Shown here: in pieces, positions 1,882 through 17,025 of the stretch | How the letters are laid out: every line of letters begins with the position of its first letter | How positions within the stretch are numbered: position 1 is the stretch's first letter | IMG/VR virus record: IMGVR_UViG_3300020450_000129 | Span: 1-20,175 of that record | Direction: 5' to 3' (one strand) | DNA from: a virus | Length of the DNA stretch: 20,175 bases | Program-made: the position numbers and the translations under genes | The notes under the pieces: model-generated | Database searches by the model: none | The model's input: only the letters and a program-made list of their open reading frames with translations | Told to the model about the DNA's origin: nothing

Positions 1882-2298
1882 AGGTATCAAGGAAAATACC
1901 GACCTACCTTTCCACGAAAGTACAAAGGTGATTATCATAACATTATTTATAGGTCTTCGTGGGAGTATAAGTTCATGGTTTGGTGTGATAGGTCATCTTC
2001 TGTTACCGAATGGGGTAGCGAAGAAATAATTGTTCCGTATATCTCTCCTGCTGATGGTCGTCGCCATAGATACTTTCCTGATTTCTATGTAAAAATAGGA
2101 CGCAAAAAGTATATGGTTGAGGTTAAACCTTTAAGACAGACTAAACAACCTAAGAAACAAAAGAGACAAACTAAAGCATATATCACAGAGGTTGTTACCT
2201 ATGCTATTAATCAAGCAAAGTGGGAAGCAGCTAAAGAATACTGTAAAGATCGTGGATGGGAGTTTATGTTAATTACAGAAAAGGAGCTTAAAGTATAA
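1879..2298 (+). CDS. gp4: Head completion protein gp4 homolog (PD-(D/E)XK nuclease fold)
   Basis: About 139 residues from the ATG at 1879; T4 gp4 is about 150. In T4 this protein completes the DNA-filled head before tail joining. Signature segments are IIYRSSWEYKFM, EWGSEEIIVPY, DGRRHRYFPDFYV and YMVEVKP. They give a TnsA-like nuclease core: a Glu in SSWE, Asp in FPD (about 22 residues after EWGSEE) and the E-V-K triad, all retained. A Lys-rich segment follows the core. An in-frame ATG exists at 1861, adding six residues, but MRYQGKYRP looks like the family N-terminus and sits 23 bases after a late-promoter-like motif, so I prefer 1879. The stop overlaps the gp54 ATG (TAATG). Whether the nuclease is active cannot be told from sequence. 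Confidence 0.85.
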   Translation: MRYQGKYRPTFPRKYKGDYHNIIYRSSWEYKFMVWCDRSSSVTEWGSEEIIVPYISPADGRRHRYFPDFYVKIGRKKYMVEVKPLRQTKQPKKQKRQTKAYITEVVTYAINQAKWEAAKEYCKDRGWEFMLITEKELKV

Positions 2299-3215
2299 TG
2301 TTTGGTGGAATAATATCATCAATTACTTCAAACTTATTCAACGATGTAGGGAATGCATTTGATCAGACATTGCAAGATTATGCTGCAGCATTTAACTCAG
2401 AGAATAATTTGTATGGAGGAGTAGTTCCCAATCAACAAGATGCTAGAGATAGTTCTTTCCAAGAGTTCCTTGCGTTCTCTAGAAAACTACAGAACAATCC
2501 TAGTTACACTAACATGTACTCGGTGCATTTTCTTACACCGTCCATGTTTGGTAGTCAACCAGGTTGGTCTTTAAGTAATAATGATGAAGCATACTTATTA
2601 GATTACTATTGTGATAGTGTAAGTTTACCTAGTAAACAGATGGCGACTGGACAGTTAGTTACAATAGGTTCACCACACAGATATGTTACTGGTACTAACT
2701 TCAGTCAAGTAAGTATGACATTTAAGATGCCAGCTAATCATAAAACAAGAACACTCTTTGAAAGATGGATGGCATTTACAAGAAATGATGCAGATCAGTA
2801 TGTAGATTTCTATGATAATTATTGTGCACCAGTAGTAAGAATATTCAAATGGGAGAGAGGAGGAGGAAATATTCTTAGTGTTTTTGATAAAGATAACTGG
2901 GCAGCATACGTAAGGAAATGTGCAGATTCTCAAGGATGGGTTGGAACTCCACAACGAAATCGTATCGTTGCTATGTGGGAACTAAGACAGGTATTTCCAT
3001 TTAATCTAGGTTCAACTCAGTTGAATAACATGGAGTCAAGAGTTAATACGTTGACTGTAGGATTTTATTTTGAAAGATATAGATACTATGTTCCATCGTA
3101 TACCGATTGGGGAGATTCTGAAGCACATATTCCTGGTGATCATCAACATGATCCTAGAAAAGCATCTACTAGAACCGTAAGAGATAGATCTAAGTGGATT
3201 ACATATAACTTCTAG
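2298..3215 (+). CDS. gp54: Baseplate tail-tube initiator gp54 homolog
   Basis: 305 residues; T4 gp54 is about 320. Residues 72-81 (NMYSVHFLTP) resemble the early NMFSCVFATTP segment I recall for T4 gp54. The later order of segments also fits the tube-like fold: VSMTFKMPANHKTRTLFERWMAF in the middle, then ELRQVFPFNLGSTQLNNMESRVNTLTVGFYFERYRYY towards the end. gp54 sits on gp48 and nucleates the tail tube. The N-terminal 60 residues are a family-specific extension. The start codon overlaps the gp4 stop by one base, which suggests coupling, and no Shine-Dalgarno sequence is visible. The identity could be confused with other tube-fold proteins (gp48, gp19), but the length, the domain order and the gp48 and gp26 neighbours support gp54. 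Confidence 0.7.
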   Translation: MFGGIISSITSNLFNDVGNAFDQTLQDYAAAFNSENNLYGGVVPNQQDARDSSFQEFLAFSRKLQNNPSYTNMYSVHFLTPSMFGSQPGWSLSNNDEAYLLDYYCDSVSLPSKQMATGQLVTIGSPHRYVTGTNFSQVSMTFKMPANHKTRTLFERWMAFTRNDADQYVDFYDNYCAPVVRIFKWERGGGNILSVFDKDNWAAYVRKCADSQGWVGTPQRNRIVAMWELRQVFPFNLGSTQLNNMESRVNTLTVGFYFERYRYYVPSYTDWGDSEAHIPGDHQHDPRKASTRTVRDRSKWITYNF

Positions 3216-3252: not shown

Positions 3253-3963
3253 ATGGCATTACCGACCTTAGTAACCCCAAAATTTAAAATGAAACTACCG
3301 TCTGACGGTAGAGTGGTAAATTATAGACCATTCCTTGTTAAAGAAGAGAAAGTTCTATTGATTGCTACTGAAACTGGCAACCAAGATAGTATCGTGAGTG
3401 CTATCAAAGATATAATTGCAGCTTGCACTGATATTAAACAAGTAGAAGCACTACCAACATTTGATATTGAGTATGTATTCTTACAAATCAGAACCAAATC
3501 TGTTGGTGAGAGTGTAGATGTAAATGTGACTTGCCCTGATGATAATGAAACACTGGTAGAAGTTAAGATACCTCTTGATTCTATCAAAGTTAAGAAGACT
3601 AAAGGTCATAGCAAAGAGATTAAGATATCAGATGAGATCTTAGTTACTATGAACTACCCAAGTCTTGATACATTTGTTAAAGCAAACTTTGTTAACGATG
3701 CTCAAGACGTAGATCAAATCTTTGAGATGGCAGCAAGTTGTGTGAAGAGTGTTACTACACCAGAAGAGGTGCATGACTGTACTACTATGCCTCATAAAGA
3801 AGTTCTAGAATTTTTAGATTCAATGAGTTCAGCTCAGTTTAAAAATGTTCAAGACTTTTTTGAGACAATGCCTAAGTTAACTCACACACTTAAGGTTACA
3901 AATCCTAATACTAATGTAGTGAGCGACGTTACACTAGAAGGTTTAGCATCTTTTTTCGGATAG
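3253..3963 (+). CDS. gp26: Baseplate hub assembly protein gp26 homolog (0-frame product)
   Basis: 236 residues; T4 gp26 is 208. The N-terminus MALPxLVTPKFKMKLPSDGRVVNYRPFLVKEEKVLL is typical of the T4 baseplate gp26 family, which is needed for hub assembly. A CPDDNE segment near residue 90, where the family often has a CP-type turn, and an alpha-helical C-terminal third (HKEVLEFLDSMSSAQFKNVQDFFETMP) fit this. The coding sequence ends in GCA TCT TTT TTC GGA TAG, and the TTT TTC pair forms the slippery heptamer T TTT TTC described separately. The normal stop is at 3961-3963. Position directly before tape-measure genes matches the place where tail assembly chaperones with frameshifted long forms lie in lambda, P2 and Mu type phages. 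Confidence 0.85.
   Translation: MALPTLVTPKFKMKLPSDGRVVNYRPFLVKEEKVLLIATETGNQDSIVSAIKDIIAACTDIKQVEALPTFDIEYVFLQIRTKSVGESVDVNVTCPDDNETLVEVKIPLDSIKVKKTKGHSKEIKISDEILVTMNYPSLDTFVKANFVNDAQDVDQIFEMAASCVKSVTTPEEVHDCTTMPHKEVLEFLDSMSSAQFKNVQDFFETMPKLTHTLKVTNPNTNVVSDVTLEGLASFFG
3951..3957 (+). other. Probable -1 ribosomal frameshift site (T TTT TTC)
   Basis: The heptamer T TTT TTC is in the correct X XXY YYZ phase relative to the gp26 frame (TTT 3952-3954, TTC 3955-3957) and lies two codons before the gp26 stop. A -1 slip continues through 67 further codons to TAA at 4158-4160. The -1 frame has no ATG, GTG or TTG start until ATG at about 4050, although the conserved-looking part of the peptide begins well before that, so frameshifting explains the reading frame better than a new start. 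Confidence 0.75.
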
Positions 3964-4160
3964 CCCTTCTCCATAATAACCTTCGGGCTTATTATGATAC
4001 CAATTTTGCTCTAATACATCATCATAAATGGCATATAGAACACATTGAAAACCTTATGCCTTGGGAGAAGGAAATCTATGTAACAATGTTAATCGACTTC
4101 TTAAGAGAAGAAGAGAAACGAATGAAGGATCAACAAGCAGCTCAACAAGCAAGTGGCTAA
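3957..4160 (+). CDS. -1 frameshift extension of gp26 (gp51-like small helical domain)
   Basis: Read from CGG at 3957 after the -1 slip, this adds 67 residues to residue 235 of gp26, giving a fusion of about 302 residues. The peptide contains NNLRAYYDTNFALIHHHKW, HIEHIENLMPWEKEIY and VTMLIDFLREEEKRM. The order aromatic/His patch, then hxxhhxLMPWEKEhY, then charged helix resembles the short second domain of frameshifted tail assembly chaperones, and the small protein called gp51 next to gp26 in cyanophage annotations. Without frameshifting only a 34-residue piece from the ATG at about 4050 could be made. Its stop overlaps the GTG of the next gene, so ribosomes that shift could restart on the tape-measure gene. 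Likely role: chaperone for the tape-measure proteins or hub, by analogy with lambda G/GT. Confidence 0.65.
   Translation, partial: RIALLHNNLRAYYDTNFALIHHHKWHIEHIENLMPWEKEIYVTMLIDFLREEEKRMKDQQAAQQASG
3972..3996 (+). promoter_or_regulatory. RNA hairpin with UUCG tetraloop downstream of the slippery site
   Basis: CATAATAACC (3972-3981) pairs with GG and TTATTATG (3986-3987, 3989-3996), leaving C3988 as a single bulge and a UUCG tetraloop (3982-3985) closed by C-G. This gives ten base pairs. No T-run follows, so it does not look like a terminator. It starts 14 bases after the heptamer. A competing shorter hairpin AGCCC (3962-3966) with GGGCT (3985-3989) would start only 4 bases after it. Confidence 0.65.
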
Positions 4161-7100
4161 CCCAAAAATAGACCCTTACAAATTAGTTAATCCTAGCGGA
4201 GGTGGTAAGAATACACTTGCTTCTAATGGTCCTAGGACTAATCTTTTAGCGGTCAATCGTCTTGGGAAAACTGTTACTAGTATTGGTGTTGTAGTAAAAG
4301 ATCTTCATGAGATATCTCTTGCATCTATCAAAGTTGATAAGATGAGGGAGGTAACTAATCGTCGTAGATTACAACGTGAAAGAGATCAAAGAAATGAGGA
4401 CGAGTTTGAAAGACAGAATGCCTTAAAGGGGAAAGGCATCGGTAAGATAAAGAAATCACAGATAAAAAAACCAAAGGAGAGTGCTCTTACACAATTTGCT
4501 AAGTCACTCTTTGGTGGTGTACAGGGGTTGTTATTATCTGCAATGCAATTCGTTGCAGGTCTTGTAAATCTACTTGCTATAAAAGGTTTACTAACATGGA
4601 TGTCAGATGCAGGAGAGATAAACAAGATAGCAGTGTTCTTACAGAAATTAAGTTTTGTAGTCAGAAAGTTATATGGATTTGCAAAGGGTAGTGTAAATAA
4701 TATACTGAATGGATTCTCTGCATTAGTTGATGGTAACAATAGTTTTTGGGGTAGGTTAAAAGGATTAGGAACATTACTACTAGGAATAGTAGGACTACAG
4801 GCATTATTAAATCCATTTGGATTAATGGATTCTATCCTTCGTATGTTGAATCTGGATTTTTATAATCCAAACAGACAATCTAAGAGTAACAATAAAAACA
4901 CATCTAATAGTAATAGTAGAGTCAACAGTAGAGTTAAGAATTATAGTAAGCAAGTAAAGTCAGGTAACAATCCTATCTTTAAAAAGTTTGGTAAAAATGG
5001 TGATAGAGTATATCGTGACGCACTTAAGCAAGGATTAACTAGAGAGCAAGCACTTAAAAGAGTACAAAGATTAGCAAATAGAAATCCATCTGCATTTAAA
5101 CCGCCAGCTAAACCACCAGTTACATCAGGTCTTAATCCTAGGACTGCTCCATCAGGAAAGGTATTATCAAAGGGTTTGAGCAGAGGATTTGGTCGTGGTG
5201 CTTTGAAGTTTCTTGGAAAGAATAATGTAAAACTTCTTAGTAACGCATTTAAAAATACCTTTGGTAGGATACCTGTTTTTGGTGCATTATTAACAGGTGT
5301 ATTCTCTATACTAAATGGTGATCCTTGGGACAAAGTAATATTTAAAACACTGGGTTCAGCTGTCGGTGGAGCATTAGGTACATTCATACCAGTACCAGGT
5401 ATAGGATCACTCTTAGGTATGATGGGTGGTGAATATGTCGGTGAGTTATTATACATTGGATTCAAAGGTGGTGGATGGAAGGCAGCAGGTAAGAAGTTAA
5501 GAGAAGATATGATGGGACTGTTTAGACAGTTCACTAAGATGTTAGTCTGGATAAAGGAAGGATGGACAAGATTCTATAAAGGTATTCCTAAGTTTAAGAT
5601 ACCAGACTTTCCTAAAGATCCTCCTAAATGGATTCCTAAGTTAACACCACTTAGAAATAAGATCTGGGCAGGTGCTAAGGTAGCAATGAAAGCTATGCTT
5701 GGTCCGTTTGGATTGATGATGGGTAAAGAAATACCCAACGTCTTCTGGATGGCAAACCTTACTGGTAACACATTCCCATTACTACACAAATCATTCTTCC
5801 CAGAAGCAGGATCAGTAAGCGAAGGTAAGACTGAAACTGGTCAGAAAATGGAGGGTGTTCAAGGTGGTGGCACTGCTAATGATACTGATATGTCTGGAAG
5901 TGGTAGTGGCACTGGTAGTGAAAGTGGTAGTCAAGTAGAGACTGATGATCCTAGAGGCGTTCCTATAAAGAATAGGCGTGGTAGAATAACTGGTTATTCT
6001 AAAGATGGTATAGTAACTCCTGTTGCACAGACATTTAATAAACCAAAGGTATCTGAACCCACATTCATGGACAATAAATCATCTAATCAATGGTGGGATT
6101 TCTTAGATGTTTTTCCTAATCAATCTGCAAAACCTAAACCGATACCAACTCTGCCAGATGGAATGACCGACTGGTCGAAAGCAGAAGTTATAGGAGGAGA
6201 GAAAGAAGAAAAGAAGAGTACTTATGTAAGTCCATACGAAAGAAAGTTTGGTAAGAAACATAATCCATTGGAGAATGTCGTTGGTATAGGTCCTAAACCA
6301 ATACCAACTTTAGCAGATGGAATGACTGACTGGTCAAAAGCGGAAGTTATAGGAGGAGATGATGAAAATAAAAATGCAAAGAAGAATAGAAAATGGTGGA
6401 ATCCATTTAGTTGGGCTACTGGCGGTCACCTACTAAGAAAGTTACCTCGACTAAACAGAAAACAATTCTTCTTTGGTAAGATATTCAGAGGTATTGGTAA
6501 AGCAGTTAGTGGTGTAGTTAAAGGTGTTACTAACGTTGTAAAAAGTGTAGTTAGTTCACCTATAGGTAGTCTTCTAGGAGCAGTTGTTCCAATAGTATTT
6601 CCTCCTGCTGCACCATTTATAGGTGCTGTTAGAGCTATAGGTGCTGCTGCATCTGGTGATATATTTGGTGCAATTACTGGTGGTATTGGTGCTTTAGGTG
6701 GTATGTTCCCTGGTACATTCGGTGGTATAGCAGATAAGTTTGGTAGTTTCATGAGCAGTAATCCACTAGGACAAGCACTTGGCGGGTTTATGCAGGGAGG
6801 TATTCAAGGAGCATTAGGTGGATTGATGGGTGGTCTAGGATCATTCTTACCAGAAGGTGTATCAGGAATGCTTAATAAGTTTGGTGGGTTCATGAAAAAG
6901 TTCCCAGCCGTAGGTGGACTGATTGGTATGATACCTGGTGTTGCTAATGTACCAGGTTTGTCTCAGTTATTTGGTTTAGATTCATTCGGACCTCATGGTT
7001 TCTCACCAATGGGATTGATAGGTAACATCGCAGACAGTATGGGATTTGGTGGACTGTTCAGAACTATCACAGGTATGATGGGAGCAGGTGGAGCTGGTGG

Positions 7101-7347
7101 ACTCATGAATGGTCTAAGAAATATGGCAGCTGAATTGGGTGTCAAACCAGAAGTGCTTGGTGTTATGTCACAGTCTGGAAGGTATATGAGTAACAAGAAA
7201 GGTGGTATGTCAAGAGAGTATGCTATGCAGTCATCACTTGAGTTTATACCAGTTCCTATGTTACTAGAGAAGTTGGTAGAGATTCAAACACCAGTTCCTA
7301 TACCTAGAATGGTACCTGTTCCAATGCCAGCTCCTGCTCAAGCATAA
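4153..7347 (+). CDS. Tape-measure-like protein 1 (baseplate hub/tail length)
   Basis: 1064 residues from a GTG that overlaps the stop of the gp26 frameshift extension. Visible parts: an N-terminal KIDPYKLVNP motif and IGVVVKDLHEI helix (residues 5-55), a charged helix (60-110), hydrophobic helices (about 110-240), a Gly/Ser linker near 568-590, two copies of a 23-residue repeat near 661-683 and 714-736, the motif LPRLNRKQFFFGKIFRGIGK near 764-783, then a long Gly-rich hydrophobic stretch and a Pro-rich end. Such long, Gly-rich, helix-forming proteins directly after frameshifted chaperones are tape measures that set tail length and fill the tube. T4 uses gp29 (about 590 residues) for this; I see no clear gp29 motif. 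It is paralogous to the next gene. The exact role of each of the two is an inference. Confidence 0.6.
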   Translation: MANPKIDPYKLVNPSGGGKNTLASNGPRTNLLAVNRLGKTVTSIGVVVKDLHEISLASIKVDKMREVTNRRRLQRERDQRNEDEFERQNALKGKGIGKIKKSQIKKPKESALTQFAKSLFGGVQGLLLSAMQFVAGLVNLLAIKGLLTWMSDAGEINKIAVFLQKLSFVVRKLYGFAKGSVNNILNGFSALVDGNNSFWGRLKGLGTLLLGIVGLQALLNPFGLMDSILRMLNLDFYNPNRQSKSNNKNTSNSNSRVNSRVKNYSKQVKSGNNPIFKKFGKNGDRVYRDALKQGLTREQALKRVQRLANRNPSAFKPPAKPPVTSGLNPRTAPSGKVLSKGLSRGFGRGALKFLGKNNVKLLSNAFKNTFGRIPVFGALLTGVFSILNGDPWDKVIFKTLGSAVGGALGTFIPVPGIGSLLGMMGGEYVGELLYIGFKGGGWKAAGKKLREDMMGLFRQFTKMLVWIKEGWTRFYKGIPKFKIPDFPKDPPKWIPKLTPLRNKIWAGAKVAMKAMLGPFGLMMGKEIPNVFWMANLTGNTFPLLHKSFFPEAGSVSEGKTETGQKMEGVQGGGTANDTDMSGSGSGTGSESGSQVETDDPRGVPIKNRRGRITGYSKDGIVTPVAQTFNKPKVSEPTFMDNKSSNQWWDFLDVFPNQSAKPKPIPTLPDGMTDWSKAEVIGGEKEEKKSTYVSPYERKFGKKHNPLENVVGIGPKPIPTLADGMTDWSKAEVIGGDDENKNAKKNRKWWNPFSWATGGHLLRKLPRLNRKQFFFGKIFRGIGKAVSGVVKGVTNVVKSVVSSPIGSLLGAVVPIVFPPAAPFIGAVRAIGAAASGDIFGAITGGIGALGGMFPGTFGGIADKFGSFMSSNPLGQALGGFMQGGIQGALGGLMGGLGSFLPEGVSGMLNKFGGFMKKFPAVGGLIGMIPGVANVPGLSQLFGLDSFGPHGFSPMGLIGNIADSMGFGGLFRTITGMMGAGGAGGLMNGLRNMAAELGVKPEVLGVMSQSGRYMSNKKGGMSREYAMQSSLEFIPVPMLLEKLVEIQTPVPIPRMVPVPMPAPAQA
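6133..6359 (+). repeat. Internal direct repeat in tape-measure protein 1 (2 x 68 bp, period 159)
   Basis: Copies lie at 6133-6200 and 6292-6359. They encode PKPIPTLPDGMTDWSKAEV and PKPIPTLADGMTDWSKAEV, each followed by IGG. The period of 159 bases keeps the frame (53 codons). Differences are mostly at third codon positions, which points to an older duplication kept under protein selection. Confidence 0.85.
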
Positions 7348-7358: not shown

Positions 7359-10300
7359 ATGACGATATCTAAAGATACCAAAATAAATGTTTATAAGTTG
7401 ATCTCTCCCAACATTGCGAAGAGTGCAGCGGCTGGTGCTGCTGATAAAGCAACAGCATCTTATCAGATGAAGACTATTGAAGCTTATAATAATCTTGGAG
7501 CATGTATTAATTCTATTGGTGGTGTTGTAGCAGATATAAAGAAGATAGAATATAAAAGATTACAAGACGAAAAGAAAAGACTAAGAGAAACATTTGAACC
7601 CAAGTATACTAAGATAGAGAAACCTAAGTTCGTATCATTTGTTAATGAGTTTGTAGGTAGGAACGCACCTAATTTCTTGAAAGGTTTACTACAAATTCTT
7701 AGTGGGTTTATTAAACTAGCAATCATAAAACCTGCGTTAGAATGGTTGTCGGACAAACGGAATCAACAAAAGATAGTCAATGCTATTGAAGCAATTTACA
7801 AAGCGTTTAAATGGATCAGTAATTTTATACAGAAACGGATAGGAGGAATAGTTAACGGGTTGTATGATCTCTTACGGGATGATGCTACATGGTGGGAACG
7901 ACTGACTGGATTTGCTAGGTCATTTGTAAACTTAGGGGCTATCTTTGTAGGTATAAGATGGTTAACTAATCCTGTTAAGTTGATCAAAGATGTTAGGTTT
8001 GTACTAACAACATTCTATAAATCATTAACTAGATTTTCTAAAGGATTAAAAACAAGAGGAAGATTTCCTGGTGGTTGGAAAGGTAAAGCATTAGGTGCGA
8101 CCCTTGCAGTTGGCACAACTCTCTGGGGTGCCAATAAGATCAAACAGATGGGTGATGATGATCCAGCCGATGAAGAGATGGCAACAGGTGGTTACCGTCA
8201 GGCACCATTAAAAAAAGTATTACCTGGTTTTGCTACTGGTGGTTGGATCTCTGGTCCTGACTCAGGTTATCCTGTATCTACAAGTCCTGGTGGTGGTAGT
8301 CCTGAGTTTATCGGTCATGGAACTGAGTATGTAGCGAAGAAAAATACTGGTGAGAGTTTTGTTATACCATTTAATAACTTTGCTACACGACAATTACCTG
8401 GTCTTACTGAAGCAAATTTAATCCAAGCAAAGCAACTTGGGTTTGACATGCCACGACTTAGTGACAAACAATTCTTCTTAGGTAAGATGTTTAGCGGTAT
8501 CAAATCTGGTATCGGTAATATGTTTAAGAGTGGCGGTGTTGGCACTAGTGGCATAGGACCTGTGGCAAGTGGGTCATCCTATGGTGCGATGTTAAAGGGT
8601 GCCTCAATGGGCATAGACTATAAGGGTGGTCGTGCTACAATGGGATCTCTCATGAAATCCCCACTCCTTACAAACGTAATAGGAAATGTATTTGGTAGTA
8701 AAGCAGGTAATATTGCAGGTACATTACAGACTGTCTTTGGTGGTGGAGGTAGTGGTGAAGGTGGCAAGGCAACCTTCATGGACATCCTTAAAGGTGGTAT
8801 CAATATAGCAGGTCAGTTCGTAGAACCTGGTAGTAAAGCATCTAATTGGATGAGTACTATCGGTGGTCTTGCTGGTACAATGTTCGGACCAGGCACTGAA
8901 GGAATGACCTTTGGTCAAAGACTTGGATACCTTGGTAAAGATTTCCTTGGCAAGATGGCAGGGAATATGCAGGGTCCTCTTGGTGGTATCATGCGAACTG
9001 TTATGGGTTCAGATGGTGGAGGATTGAACCAAGCATTAGGTAATGTTCTTGGTGCATCTGTAAGTGGATCATCTGGTGGTCAAGGTGTAGATCAAAAACT
9101 TGTAGGTGGTGGACAACAGGCAGTAATAGAGGCAGGTCGTGGATTCTTGAACCAAGGATACACAGTTTATAATCATAAAAACTTTAAGAATAATAGATGG
9201 AGAAAAGGACCTCCTAATAGATCAGGATACGATCCATCTGGTAAGCAAAGAAGAGGTAGAGGTGGTTTATATTCTAAGAACTTAGCATTTGATGTTAGTT
9301 GGCACGGTAAAGGTGATAAGACATCTAAGTTACAGATGGTTGCTGATCAAGCATACGGTAATAGAAGAGGATTAAAACTAACTTCTATCATTGGTAACAA
9401 GTGGGGTAAATGGATCTTTGGTCGTGATAAGAAGGCACCAGGTTCTCATGGTGTAAGAAATAAGGTTCAGTTTGGTTTCGGTGACAATCAGGTTGCAGGG
9501 TCAGGCAACATTGGTATGAGTGGAAGTGATCTAGAGCAAATGAAGAGTGTCATAGCTCAAGCATCTGGCGGTGATCCAAAAGAGATGGCAATCATGGCTA
9601 GATCTTTTATGAATCAGGCAGGTGTAATAGATCAAGGAGCAGGTGCTAACTTCGGTGGTGCACAAACTATGGGTGATATCCTTAACAATCTTCAAGGTGC
9701 ATTCAACCCAGACAAAATGCTATCACCTGCTATGCAGAAGAAGGCAACAGCAGCGATCAATATTGCAGGTGATACTAACTGGATGACTTCCATGTTAGGA
9801 GGACAGGGATTCTCTGAACCTCAGACAATGGCACTGTTGAACTCTACAACGTTTAAGAACACTGGAATATACAATAAGGGTGACGACTCATCACAAATAA
9901 AATTTGGAGATACAGTCTTTAGTACTGAGGGTAATAAGTTCTTCAATGATTACATGAAGAACACTGATTTAGGTGTAGCAAATGGGGAGAACCCAATGTT
10001 CCCTAGCACAAAGGAAACTTCTACTAAAGCATACCAAAAGAATAAAAGAGGTAGTGCGTTCCAATCTAACACTAACTATGGTGGTGGTGTTACTGGTGCA
10101 TCATCAGGTGGTGCATCATCAGGTAGTATATTAGGCACACCCTCTGGTGGACAGCAAAGAGGTGGTAACAATCAAAATCAACAGAGAGAAGAAGCGTATG
10201 CTCTAAAGAAGGTATATAGTGAGAGATCATATGCAAGAGAGCAGATCACAGAAAGAACAAGGAGACTTGTTGCTGAAACTATGGCTGCTGTTGAAGCACA

Positions 10301-10454
10301 TAACGCATCCGTAAGAGCAAATGTTGCTGCTGCAGCATCAGCAGTTGAAAAGTTGAAGTCAGGTGGTGGAGGAATGCGAGGTCTTGCAGGTGCTAAGGCA
10401 TCATTAAATGCTGCCAACTTACAAAGTAATTTCAGTGTCGCTAAGTTTGCTTAA
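7359..10454 (+). CDS. Tape-measure-like protein 2 with hydrolase-like domains
   Basis: 1031 residues. Its N-terminus (KINVYKLISP, then NSIGGVVADIKKIEYKRL) and the motif PRLSDKQFFLGKMFSGI near residue 367 parallel the upstream gene, so the two are paralogs. A tape-measure-like patch FATGGWISGPDSG with GHGTEYV lies near 290-330, followed by a Gly-rich region. Residues about 590-705 resemble phage M15-type peptidases (LNQGYTVYNHKNF, LYSKNLAFDVSW, PGSHGV), but the expected zinc-ligand histidines look replaced. Residues about 723-905 resemble SleB-type cell-wall hydrolases (AQASGGDPKEMAIMARSFMNQ, TMGDILNNLQGAFNP), with Gln at residue 734 where the catalytic Glu is expected. A charged coiled coil (about 945-1010) and an Ala-rich end follow. 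Role: probably the tube-filling or hub protein that meets the cell wall. Enzyme activity is doubtful. Confidence 0.6.
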   Translation: MTISKDTKINVYKLISPNIAKSAAAGAADKATASYQMKTIEAYNNLGACINSIGGVVADIKKIEYKRLQDEKKRLRETFEPKYTKIEKPKFVSFVNEFVGRNAPNFLKGLLQILSGFIKLAIIKPALEWLSDKRNQQKIVNAIEAIYKAFKWISNFIQKRIGGIVNGLYDLLRDDATWWERLTGFARSFVNLGAIFVGIRWLTNPVKLIKDVRFVLTTFYKSLTRFSKGLKTRGRFPGGWKGKALGATLAVGTTLWGANKIKQMGDDDPADEEMATGGYRQAPLKKVLPGFATGGWISGPDSGYPVSTSPGGGSPEFIGHGTEYVAKKNTGESFVIPFNNFATRQLPGLTEANLIQAKQLGFDMPRLSDKQFFLGKMFSGIKSGIGNMFKSGGVGTSGIGPVASGSSYGAMLKGASMGIDYKGGRATMGSLMKSPLLTNVIGNVFGSKAGNIAGTLQTVFGGGGSGEGGKATFMDILKGGINIAGQFVEPGSKASNWMSTIGGLAGTMFGPGTEGMTFGQRLGYLGKDFLGKMAGNMQGPLGGIMRTVMGSDGGGLNQALGNVLGASVSGSSGGQGVDQKLVGGGQQAVIEAGRGFLNQGYTVYNHKNFKNNRWRKGPPNRSGYDPSGKQRRGRGGLYSKNLAFDVSWHGKGDKTSKLQMVADQAYGNRRGLKLTSIIGNKWGKWIFGRDKKAPGSHGVRNKVQFGFGDNQVAGSGNIGMSGSDLEQMKSVIAQASGGDPKEMAIMARSFMNQAGVIDQGAGANFGGAQTMGDILNNLQGAFNPDKMLSPAMQKKATAAINIAGDTNWMTSMLGGQGFSEPQTMALLNSTTFKNTGIYNKGDDSSQIKFGDTVFSTEGNKFFNDYMKNTDLGVANGENPMFPSTKETSTKAYQKNKRGSAFQSNTNYGGGVTGASSGGASSGSILGTPSGGQQRGGNNQNQQREEAYALKKVYSERSYAREQITERTRRLVAETMAAVEAHNASVRANVAAAASAVEKLKSGGGGMRGLAGAKASLNAANLQSNFSVAKFA

Positions 10455-11856: not shown

Positions 11857-12162
11857 ATGATTGAAACCGACTTTAAAGGTATCGGAGAAAATCCTCAAGC
11901 GAAGAGAACTCACGATCTTGATCATGAAGTTTACCTTGATCCTAAAGATGGCAAGGAGCATATCAATCACGGTATTCTAGAATATACTGTTGATGAGTTA
12001 AACAATGTTCATGCTGATTATGCAGACTACCATAAAAATGATGTAGTTGATCCTAATGATGGTAAAATCAATGATTGGCATACTAGACATCAAGACAAAC
12101 ATCTAGAAGTTTACTGTGACAATCATCCAGATGCATTTGAGTGTCGTGTTTACGACGATTAG
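11857..12162 (+). CDS. cp12: Phage CP12-like Calvin cycle inhibitor
   Basis: 101 residues. The end LEVYCDNHPDAFECRVYDD carries the CP12 C-terminal signature: Cys87-x8-Cys96-RVYDD, with Pro91 in the loop. Residues 44-60 (TVDELNNVHADYADYHK) resemble the CP12 core AWDxVEELQAEA. In cyanobacteria CP12 binds GAPDH and PRK and shuts the Calvin cycle in the dark; phage CP12 is thought to divert carbon flow to NADPH and nucleotide synthesis. Two features are unusual. The N-terminal Cys pair of standard CP12 is absent, and an N-terminal 40-residue, acidic, His-rich region has been added. The segment DPxDGK occurs twice (residues 28-33 and 65-70). It has a late promoter and a Shine-Dalgarno sequence, and CpeT follows after 14 bases. 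The C-terminal identity is strong; full regulatory function is uncertain. Confidence 0.85.
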   Translation: MIETDFKGIGENPQAKRTHDLDHEVYLDPKDGKEHINHGILEYTVDELNNVHADYADYHKNDVVDPNDGKINDWHTRHQDKHLEVYCDNHPDAFECRVYDD

Positions 12163-12176
12163 TTCTTTAGTTTGTA

Positions 12177-12623
12177 ATGATTTTTGATGAATATTTGTTA
12201 GGACATTGGACTAACAGGTCACAAGCACAATCTAACCCTCATAAAGTTGCCCAGACAGAGGTGATCTGGGCAAAAGAAGGTGATTGGTATACCTCTTTGA
12301 ATTTTTACAGAGTAGATGGTCCTCACAAACCATATCGCAATAAAAAACACAAGATAGAAATAGTATCAGATAATTATATCATTATGCAGAACTATAGACT
12401 GGATGGTTCTCGACATGAGGAATGTGATATGCATTTTAGATATGAATCTGAACATTGGAGTGGAAAATTAGACAGCGATAGATGTCGAGGAGAGAAAGGG
12501 TACAGGGTTGTTTCAGAAATATATCTCTACGGAGAGAAGTTATTGTCACGAGATAAAGGATTGAATCAACAGGGCAAGATGGTATGGGGTAGCGAGGAAA
12601 TGTATAAGTTCGTCCGTATATAA
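12177..12623 (+). CDS. cpeT: CpeT-like phycobiliprotein lyase
   Basis: 148 residues. Signature segments of CpeT/CpcT: LLGHWTNRSQAQSNP at the N-terminus, EVIWAKEGDWYTSLNFYRVDGPHKPYRNKKHKI, RHEECDMHFRYE, WSGKLDSDRCRGEKGYRVVSEIYLYGEKLLSRDKG and a closing WGSEEMYKFVRI. In cyanobacteria these lyases attach phycobilins to a cysteine of phycoerythrin or phycocyanin beta subunits, and homologs are known from marine cyanophages. Cyanobacterial forms are near 200 residues; this phage form is shorter, as other phage copies are. It follows CP12 and probably shares its late promoter. Substrate (phycoerythrobilin on CpeB) is inferred from the family. The presence of this gene argues for a phycobiliprotein-containing host. 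No Shine-Dalgarno sequence is visible before the ATG. Confidence 0.9.
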   Translation: MIFDEYLLGHWTNRSQAQSNPHKVAQTEVIWAKEGDWYTSLNFYRVDGPHKPYRNKKHKIEIVSDNYIIMQNYRLDGSRHEECDMHFRYESEHWSGKLDSDRCRGEKGYRVVSEIYLYGEKLLSRDKGLNQQGKMVWGSEEMYKFVRI

Positions 12624-15681: not shown

Positions 15682-15899
15682 TGACTGACTTTCAAGAGAT
15701 AACTGAAGAAGAAGCGATAGCACAATTACCCTTTCTTTTAACAATGTGTGAGAGAAACAGAACCGTTTGGAAAATTAAACGAAAAGATGGTTCTGTAGCA
15801 ATTCTTTCTCCTGTAAAACAATCAGGTCCTCCAGTAGACCCAGAGGTTTTATCAGTTGTTGAAGAATTTCGTAAGAATATGGTTTTAGAACAAAAATGA
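15681..15899 (+). CDS. Small protein of unknown function
   Basis: 72 residues. An N-terminal acidic helix (FQEITEEEAIAQLPFLL) is followed by a small beta-like part (RTVWKIKRKDGSVAILSPV) and a C-terminal helix. One cysteine. I do not recognise the family. Overlaps: TAATG with the gene before and ATGA with the oxygenase gene after, so all four genes are likely translated in a coupled way. Such a small partner next to an oxygenase could be an accessory or a substrate protein, but no motif says so. Confidence 0.7.
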   Translation: MTDFQEITEEEAIAQLPFLLTMCERNRTVWKIKRKDGSVAILSPVKQSGPPVDPEVLSVVEEFRKNMVLEQK

Positions 15900-16372
15900 T
15901 TGATGTTATTGATGATTTTTTTGAACAAAGTATTCATGAACGATTGCATAACTTTTGCTTGAGAGCAAATTATCGTTATGGTGAATGCGATGCATATGGA
16001 TTACCACCAGTAGGTATGGTTTCTGATATTCTACCTAATGGACAGAGAAGTCCATTTGATTTATTTGAAGAAACTATAGAAAGAGAATTTAATATTGTTG
16101 ATTCACCTTACAGGATGTACATTAATTTGTTTGCACCTAATGAGCAACCATTTTGGCACTCAGATGGTCAAACTGGATATACATTTCTGTATTATCCTAA
16201 TTTAGAGTGGGATGAAAATGATTTGGGAGAAACACAGTTTCTTATTGATGGTGAAATTAGGGGTATTGTTCCTAAACCTAATAGAATGCTTGGATTTGAT
16301 GCTAGTCTAGTTCATAGAGCAACTACATTTAGAGATAAACATCGTTTTACTATCGCTATCAAATACTCATGA
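15896..16372 (+). CDS. 2-oxoglutarate/Fe(II)-dependent oxygenase 1
   Basis: 158 residues. The double-stranded beta-helix core of the prolyl-4-hydroxylase-like family is visible: iron ligands His88-x-Asp90 (PFWHSDGQTGYTFLYY) and His140 (LVHRATTF), and Arg150 ten residues later (HRFTIAIKY), the usual 2-oxoglutarate carboxylate binder. All key residues are present, so it is probably active. These enzymes hydroxylate proteins, small molecules or nucleic acid bases; cyanophages often carry several, with unknown substrates. It is the third gene of the operon, with ATGA overlaps on both sides. The short length is usual for phage members. The substrate cannot be inferred from the sequence. Confidence 0.88.
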   Translation: MIDVIDDFFEQSIHERLHNFCLRANYRYGECDAYGLPPVGMVSDILPNGQRSPFDLFEETIEREFNIVDSPYRMYINLFAPNEQPFWHSDGQTGYTFLYYPNLEWDENDLGETQFLIDGEIRGIVPKPNRMLGFDASLVHRATTFRDKHRFTIAIKYS

Positions 16373-17025
16373 CTGAAAAATTTTATATAGAACCTTTGTT
16401 CTCTAATTTTATTGCGTCTGATATATTAGATATTGATTGTGATAAAATTGTAGAGTTTATCAAAACTGTAGATACAGGTATACCACTTGACTTGAATGAA
16501 CCTGCTATACATGATGTTATAGATGAAGTTCACAACTCTATTCCTAAGTTTATGAAGATATATGGTTTAGGATTACAGGCAAAACCAAGAGTTACTACAT
16601 GTTGGGCAAACAGAAATAACGCTTCAGAACCTTTAAAACCTCATCTTCATGGCACACATTGGATTAGTTCTGTATTCTATCCAGAGGCAGATGAAGAATC
16701 ACCAGATTTAGTATTAAAAAATCCAATTACTAATGTGATGGAATATGCAGTTCCATATCAATATCATGAACATGCAACTTTGTATAATTCTGGAAGAATA
16801 AAAATAACACCTAAAAAAGGACTTTTAATATATTTTCCTAGTTGGATAGAACATTGGGTAGATCCAGAGTGCCCTTCCACTAGTAATAGGTATAGTTTAG
16901 CGTTTAATATAACGTTAAATCACATATCTAATGATTATATTGAACACATATATCACCCTAACAATCAGTTAGGTGAAATGTTTAACATAGTTAACAAAGA
17001 AAGGGATCGTACCCCTTATAAATAA
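16369..17025 (+). CDS. 2-oxoglutarate/Fe(II)-dependent oxygenase 2 (HxH variant)
   Basis: 218 residues. The segment LKPHLHGTHWISSVFYPEAD, then GLLIYFPSWIEHWVDPE and NRYSLAFNITL fits the group of putative 2OG-Fe(II) oxygenases often written 2OG-FeII_Oxy_5. Candidate ligands are His92 and His94 (HxH in place of HxD), His162 and the 2-oxoglutarate-binding Arg174 (12 residues on). It is unlike the first oxygenase in sequence, so the pair is not a recent duplication. It is the last gene of the operon, and its stop codon lies inside the next late promoter. The missing Asp may mean different metal chemistry or a normal trait of this subgroup; substrate unknown. Confidence 0.8.
   Translation: MTEKFYIEPLFSNFIASDILDIDCDKIVEFIKTVDTGIPLDLNEPAIHDVIDEVHNSIPKFMKIYGLGLQAKPRVTTCWANRNNASEPLKPHLHGTHWISSVFYPEADEESPDLVLKNPITNVMEYAVPYQYHEHATLYNSGRIKITPKKGLLIYFPSWIEHWVDPECPSTSNRYSLAFNITLNHISNDYIEHIYHPNNQLGEMFNIVNKERDRTPYK
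17017..17024 (+). promoter_or_regulatory. Late promoter (TATAAATA, exact T4 consensus)
   Basis: TATAAATA overlaps the end of the second oxygenase gene and ends 28 bases before the GTG at 17052. It is the only plus-strand exact match to the T4 form noticed in a gene-upstream position. It restarts late transcription for the structural genes after the sigma70-driven operon. Confidence 0.65.

Follow-up and report, generated by a model that had tools for sequence, protein, structure and literature searches.

In phage λ, a -1 slip near the 3' end of the short tail chaperone gene, at the heptamer G GGA AAG, turns gpG into gpGT by adding a C-terminal domain read in the -1 frame. The E/E+E' frameshift of phage P2 uses the heptamer T TTT TTG. 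For the T4-like phages, Vladimirov, Gautam and Davidson (2022, Virology 566:9-15) reportedly, going by their title, identified the chaperone genes and suggested a non-frameshifting mechanism. A passage in a 2016 review describes the G-T tail-chaperone frameshift as widely conserved in long-tailed phages “except T4” (PMC5009743). Upstream of the tape measure gene, a conserved T-rich site with the motif GTTTTT and an open -1 frame after it has been described for the chaperone of Vandenendeviridae and Andersonviridae, the extension of which is stated to be routinely misannotated (PMC12846349). Going by that title, PRFect (PMC10885494) and the Adele paper (PMC12846349), T4-like chaperones are already in print together with a two-gene solution, and the poly-T signals of T4-like chaperone genes are attributed to Vladimirov et al. 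2022, a study that probably covers part of the present finding.

Here we describe a cyanophage locus that resembles these systems. As in λ, the locus has a short chaperone gene with a putative -1 slip near its 3' end and a C-terminal domain in the -1 frame, and the gene order is by description also alike, with the tail tube gene before and a long ORF after. It differs from λ in the heptamer, T TTT TTC, and in the short form, which has 236 residues and belongs to family PF12322. By description, P2 E/E+E' likewise has a poly-T heptamer in a myovirus tail gene, and Vandenendeviridae and Andersonviridae have a similar T-rich site with an open -1 frame, though with another motif and in other phage families. 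Among the papers listed by our literature searches, no title or opening of an abstract described a gp26 frameshift in a cyanophage, which is not proof that no such report exists. Nor did a junction-spanning peptide or a reporter result come to light. Because T4-like chaperones and poly-T signals are already published, we regard the cyanophage case as a well-supported instance of a known system, to which we add the breadth of the heptamer rule and a structural test.

The 3' end of gp26 in the window

The window analyzed here is a whole virus record of 20,175 bases, itself a fragment, and its gene set fits a T4-like cyanophage: tail tube, gp26, a gp5-like baseplate hub lysozyme family, head closure, CP12 and CpeT. 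The features that bear on the present question are as follows.

2298..3215, + strand: tail tube gene (phrog_45 tail tube, E 5.7e-48), directly upstream of gp26
3253..3963, + strand: gp26, zero-frame product of 236 residues, proposed short tail assembly chaperone (TAC-N)
3937..3941, + strand: GAAGG, an SD-like stretch 9 bases 5' of the heptamer, possible upstream stimulator, weak
3951..3957, + strand: slippery heptamer T TTT TTC, conserved in the distinct junctions of relatives
3957..4160, + strand: extension in the -1 frame, with 67 codons and a stop, as the C-terminal portion of a proposed long chaperone (TAC-NC, 302 residues)
3962..3996, + strand: candidate downstream RNA structure, with a hairpin 3972-3979 / 3989-3996 (8 bp) and an alternative stem 3962-3966 / 3985-3989
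4153..7347, + strand: next long ORF, 1064 residues, candidate tape measure (phrog_790, E 1.7e-139), the GTG start of which overlaps the stop of the extension

The gp26 product matches PF12322 (E 6.4e-73) and phrog_150 (E 1.3e-79), and an NCBIfam search with it gave no match. A preliminary description of this DNA had placed a slippery heptamer in the right phase close to the gp26 stop, and the zero-frame reading of 3949-3963, TCT TTT TTC GGA TAG, bears this out: after the shifty A-site codon there is a single sense codon, GGA, and then the TAG stop of gp26. The -1 frame is open for 67 codons after the slip (3957-4157) up to a TAA stop at 4158-4160, and the predicted slip product has 235+67 = 302 residues, compared to 236 for gp26 itself; both lengths agree with those first given. 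As also described, this frame is devoid of ATG, GTG and TTG until an ATG at 4056 (codon 33 of the 67 when the first is numbered zero). Among the rarer start-like codons sought upstream of that ATG (CTG, ATT, ATC and ATA), ATA occurs at 3960, 4014 and 4035, and ATT at 4044.

Within the 6,139 codon pairs of the 17 ORFs in the window, T TTT TTC occurs in phase only once; X XXY YYZ heptamers of whatever type number 29 in phase and include one T TTT TTT and two A AAA AAC. With 0.13 stops per codon, as in the -1 frames of ten genes of the window, a run of 67 open codons has a probability of ~9e-5. By itself, however, the open frame does not decide the matter, because of the 1092 wrong-frame runs actually present in these ten genes, 3 are at least 67 codons long. 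Since neither the open frame nor an in-phase heptamer is rare enough on its own, the question of chance is settled by comparison with relatives, which makes a chance origin of the arrangement very unlikely, as judged from sequence.

The conserved heptamer and excess RNA structure in relatives

The sample, collected by gp26 similarity, comprised 184 loci, with 21 from named phages and 162 from IMG/VR in addition to the window, and gave 159 distinct junctions. The heptamer T TTT TT(C/T/G) stands in phase at 157 of the 159 distinct gp26 3' ends, counts that are not independent events, because the sequences are related and were fetched by gp26 similarity. Of the 157 carriers, 19 come from named phage records; 151 have T TTT TTC, five T TTT TTT and one T TTT TTG. 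The codon before the heptamer is AGT (65), TCT (39), GCT (30), GAT (15), AAT (6) or GGT (2), so that it ends in T in every case despite encoding five different residues (Ser, Ala, Asp, Asn and Gly), compared to 59% expected from the codon use of the phages themselves. For the residues xFF, the codon use of each phage gives T TTT TTC an expected probability of ~0.11, and T TTT TTC occurs at none of the 158 further Phe-Phe pairs in these gp26 genes.

Beyond the gp26 stop, the -1 frame stays open at all heptamer-bearing junctions but one (156/157), with four of the open frames running off contig ends. The conserved heptamer and open frame that the preliminary description had proposed to look for in T4-like cyanophages are found, and they extend to Vibrio phage KVP40, Aeromonas phage Ahp1 and Pseudomonas phage Astolliot; Pelagibacter phage HTVC008M and Rhizobium phage RHph_I34 have the variants T TTT TTT and T TTT TTG, respectively. 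In KVP40 and Astolliot, the site persists in gp26 proteins only 24-28% identical to that of the window. The same layout in these 156 junctions, together with purifying selection on the -1 frame (see below), argues against a sequencing error or a decayed gene end followed by a chance open frame, for which the 3/1092 frequency of wrong-frame runs of this length would speak; we consider such an origin exceedingly improbable.

Three junctions depart from this pattern. In S-SCSM1 (locus L005, 1180-1240), the heptamer is kept, but an apparent insertion puts the extension into the +1 frame, through either a sequencing error or a genuine decoupling in which an ATG serves as the start. The two junctions that miss the heptamer both belong to Ackermannviridae, namely Vi01 (L097, 2280-2470) and Vibrio 207E48.1 (L101, 2060-2260); they retain an extension-like -1 ORF without the canonical heptamer, and in 207E48.1 an ATG overlaps the gp26 stop. 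As a separate observation, the IMG/VR junction L045 (2180-2470) has an extension of 84 codons, the first part of which looks partly repeated (LEPYYKINF ... LESYFKINF).

Structure in the RNA 3' of the heptamer, the canonical bacterial (dnaX-like) companion of a slip site, is in excess in many relatives. In 68 of 106 clusters, the native segment at +1 to +45, counted from the heptamer, exceeds synonymous shuffles in stability (p<0.05), and the mean z is -2.59. Two control windows further downstream reach this level in 13/106 and 17/106 clusters (mean z -0.27 and -0.75), both counts above the ~5/106 expected by chance. The downstream fold differs between lineages, and covariation is weak. The Q/H group (51 sequences) has a 10-bp stem starting at +7, in which 86.7% of cells are paired, compared to 29-36% when the stem is slid; it shows few compensatory changes, and its covariation score was reached by 49 of 500 shuffles. 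Because this covariation is weak, the claim of structure rests on the codon-shuffle test. In the clade of the window, the 8-bp hairpin 3972-3979 / 3989-3996 starts at +15 and has 97.5% of its cells paired over five distinct sequences, with one compensatory change from A-U to C-G and a score reached by 98 of 500 shuffles. The structure of the window itself is modest, with p 0.037 against codon shuffles and, for a 73-base stretch compared to its dinucleotide shuffles, a z of only -0.62. A pseudoknot over 3962-3996, combining an AGCCC/GGGCT stem with the hairpin, looked promising in the window itself but was rejected, the first stem being paired in only 44% of cells in the five distinct clade sequences. 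A search of Rfam with 3800-4300 gave no match at E<=1.

Upstream of the heptamer, 69 of the 98 clusters with Glu (of 106) use GAG GGN for a Glu-Gly pair, compared to a GAG use of 30%. This choice places an SD-like GAGGG ~9 bases 5' of the heptamer, where the window has GAA; a test of upstream SD energy reached p<0.05 singly in only 6 of 106 clusters. In dnaX, an SD-like element is similarly placed upstream of the slip site.

The conserved T run, with 7 or 8 Ts in some members (L170, HTVC008M and L094), might alternatively point to slippage of the RNA polymerase, which would yield mRNAs of shifted frame. However, nearly all junctions carry precisely T TTT TTC (151/157), and the fixed phase together with RNA structure just downstream fits ribosomal slipping; moreover, the bacterial cases described in a passage of PMC5009743 involve runs of 9 A or T. 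Transcriptional slippage is accordingly a highly improbable explanation.

The extension and its start codons

The extension matches phrog_634, “baseplate hub assembly catalyst”, with an E of 2.2e-29, and a tblastn search (E<=10) found it in 539 phage records, 524 of which cover at least 80% of its length. Its sole match in NCBIfam was to a sigma-factor model (E 0.014), well short of the cut-off of that model. Among eight sequences of the window's clade, the -1 frame contains no stop, where the remaining frames have 35 and 47. The dN/dS ratio in this clade is 0.042 for the extension (25 pairs) versus 0.100 for gp26 (28 pairs), so the extension is under stronger purifying selection than gp26 there. 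By its sequence record, the extension is a real protein segment.

An early start codon was defined as ATG, GTG or TTG within the first 11 codons after the slip. The preliminary description had named a proper start codon and ribosome-binding site for the downstream frame in relatives as speaking against the frameshift, and this is observed in part: an early start is present at 121 of 155 junctions, and the other 34, which comprise the window's clade and several other lineages, have none. The commonest are ATG at codon 3 (77), TTG at codon 1 (18) and ATG at codon 6 (14). Only 2 of 82 ATGs after the slip have an SD energy of -4 or below. Since an SD is missing (energy above -4) from 12 of 16 genes of the window as well, this scarcity carries little weight, and we rejected it as an argument against separate starts.

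Annotation of the extension varies among relatives, being “gp51”, “hypothetical protein” or none. In the opened records of junctions without an early start, gp51 may be annotated from a later internal codon, down to 31 residues in P-SSM7 and ACG-2014g; such later starts are also used in S-CAM3, HTVC008M, Astolliot and OC records. The extension is unannotated in ACG-2014b, metaG-MbCM1 and DSL-LC03, which have no early start, and in S-PRM1 despite an early ATG.

These codons bear on the reading in which the extension is a separate gene, gp51, translated from its own start or by termination-reinitiation at the gp26 stop, with the T run a by-product of the conserved terminal Phe-Phe. A start codon within 11 codons of the slip at 121/155 junctions fits that reading, public annotations adopt such starts in P-SSM4, S-SM2 and ACG-2014f, the +1 frame of S-SCSM1 needs one, and a lack of SD is normal in this genome. 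But the 34 remaining junctions, the window included, offer no such codon before the conserved part, and conservation of Phe-Phe explains neither the choice of T TTT TTC nor the T-ending codon before it. In addition, T4 carries both parts in one protein, as set out below. Taken with these points, a separately initiated gp51 is improbable, although separate initiation may occur where an ATG follows the gp26 stop.

In our preferred reading, which we hold to be very probably right, gp26 would be a short tail assembly chaperone of the λ G/GT kind and the frameshifted 302-residue protein its long form. We propose that most ribosomes terminate at the TAG, giving the short form of 236 residues, and that a minority slip back by one base with two Phe-tRNAs on TTT and TTC, both of which could re-pair with TTT. 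The slipped ribosomes would then continue for 67 codons to yield the 302-residue long form. The downstream hairpin, lineage-specific in sequence, probably raises the slip rate, and the SD-like GAGGG/GAAGG ~9 bases upstream perhaps does so too. By analogy with λ, many short and few long chaperones would bind the tape measure, and the extension would recruit the tail tube protein. The cyanophage “gp51, baseplate hub assembly catalyst” is then probably the tail of a frameshift product, which some records trim to 31 residues or omit.

Relation to T4 gp26 and gp51, possible chaperone fold and the downstream gene

In text of PMC3004832, T4 gp26 and gp51 are listed as hub assembly chaperones, with gp51 needed yet absent from the particle; genetic work cited there places gp26 in the baseplate hub in a structural role. 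At E<=0.001, PF12322 has one match per record in 21 phages other than T4 and two in T4, namely gp26 and gp51. The window record also has a single match and thus differs from the two-gene arrangement of T4, although this record is a fragment and a second gene of this virus may lie outside it. T4 gp51 covers positions 13 to 280 of the 282 of phrog_150 and also matches phrog_634, families of which the T4 proteins may themselves be members. A profile of gp26 relatives with no T4 member aligns with residues 6-187 of the T4-type gp51 (E 1.6e-9, profile comparison), and a profile of the extension aligns with residues 206-245 (E 5e-7, hhalign). Profiles were needed to detect the homology between gp51 and the extension, because BLASTP of T4 gp51 against the extension alone gave no meaningful match (E 11).

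With both the gp26 relatives and the extension aligning to it, T4 gp51 appears to be what the frameshift product would be if encoded in a single frame, with a gp26-like part fused in frame to a homologue of the extension. The earlier proposal that gp26 and the so-called gp51 are the short form and the extension of one chaperone gains support from this match. T4 thus shares with the cyanophages PF12322 and the pairing of a gp26-like part with the extension, whereas in T4 the two forms come from a pair of divergent genes, with no heptamer in gp26, and the cyanophages have one gene with a slip site. Among 10 T4-type gp26 loci with a readable 3' end (T4 included), seven retain Phe-Phe, encoded each time by TTC TTT, and three have different residues at this site; the heptamer occurs in none of the 10. 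A broad part of T4's relatives, marine cyanophages included, carries the slip site, and this breadth suggests that T4 is the derived case. The comparison offers a testable path from frameshifting to two genes as means of making two protein forms in a set ratio.

The AlphaFold model of gp26 has a pLDDT of 85. Its nearest solved chain is the HK97 tail assembly chaperone (PDB 2OB9), with a Z of 7.7 and an RMSD of 4.5 over 83 aligned residues, followed by 3FGX (Z 7.1, RMSD 4.4, 84 aligned) and 3KLU (Z 6.9, RMSD 4.2, 84 aligned), both of which we take to be tail chaperone relatives. These three matches span the first 93 or fewer residues of gp26; further neighbours are 5IR0 (Z 5.1) and 6VEK (Z 4.8), and then chains at a Z of 2.8 or less. 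Foldseek gave no significant match in the PDB for either the gp26 model or the T4-type gp51 model, and against viral models the gp26 model retrieved gp26-type proteins, as expected. A fold search with the T4-type gp51 model reached a VIA Z of at most 4.9, with no tail chaperone among the matches listed, and a search of the PDB by sequence gave nothing relevant apart from one chance match at E 0.88. The model supports a tail chaperone fold for gp26, and such a fold is supported rather than proven because the Z scores lie below 8 and Foldseek alone is not significant.

At 119 of 143 junctions examined, the long ORF that follows has a start that overlaps or abuts the stop of the extension; these starts are 69 ATG, 49 GTG and one TTG, and 10 of them have an SD energy of -4 or below. 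In the window, this start is the GTG at 4153, without SD. The next ORF is labelled endolysin in PHROGs and “endolysin” or “lysozyme” in the records of several relatives; among the records opened, only HTVC008M has the label “putative tail tape measure”, there with a 110-residue ORF intervening. The downstream ORF may be the tape measure. Because the overlap recurs at 119/143 junctions, with GTG or TTG in 50 and a clear SD in only 10, the frameshifted ribosomes may also start the next gene. The overlap is not claimed as proof of coupling; other genes in the window overlap as well, for example at 2298, 15681, 15896 and 16369. A wider scenario is possible, if rather doubtful, in which frameshifting was the early state of the T4 superfamily, the T4 core swapped to two genes, and frameshifted ribosomes may start the next gene. 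If it is true, a single slip rate would set the levels of both the long chaperone and the tape measure.

Several other genes of the window deserve mention. An adjoining pair of genes, 15896-16372 and 16369-17025, resembles 2OG-Fe(II) oxygenases, and the former also matches phrog_274, “DNA endonuclease V”, a label that looks doubtful. The tail module contains auxiliary metabolic genes, encoding a CP12 domain protein at 11857-12162 (PF02672, E 8.3e-8) and a CpeT-like protein at 12177-12623 (PF06206, E 4e-15). Moreover, the tandem ORFs 4153-7347 and 7359-10454, of ~1,000 residues each, both match phrog_790, phrog_1200 and phrog_17778 in their N-terminal parts and are possibly duplicated proteins of the tape measure type.
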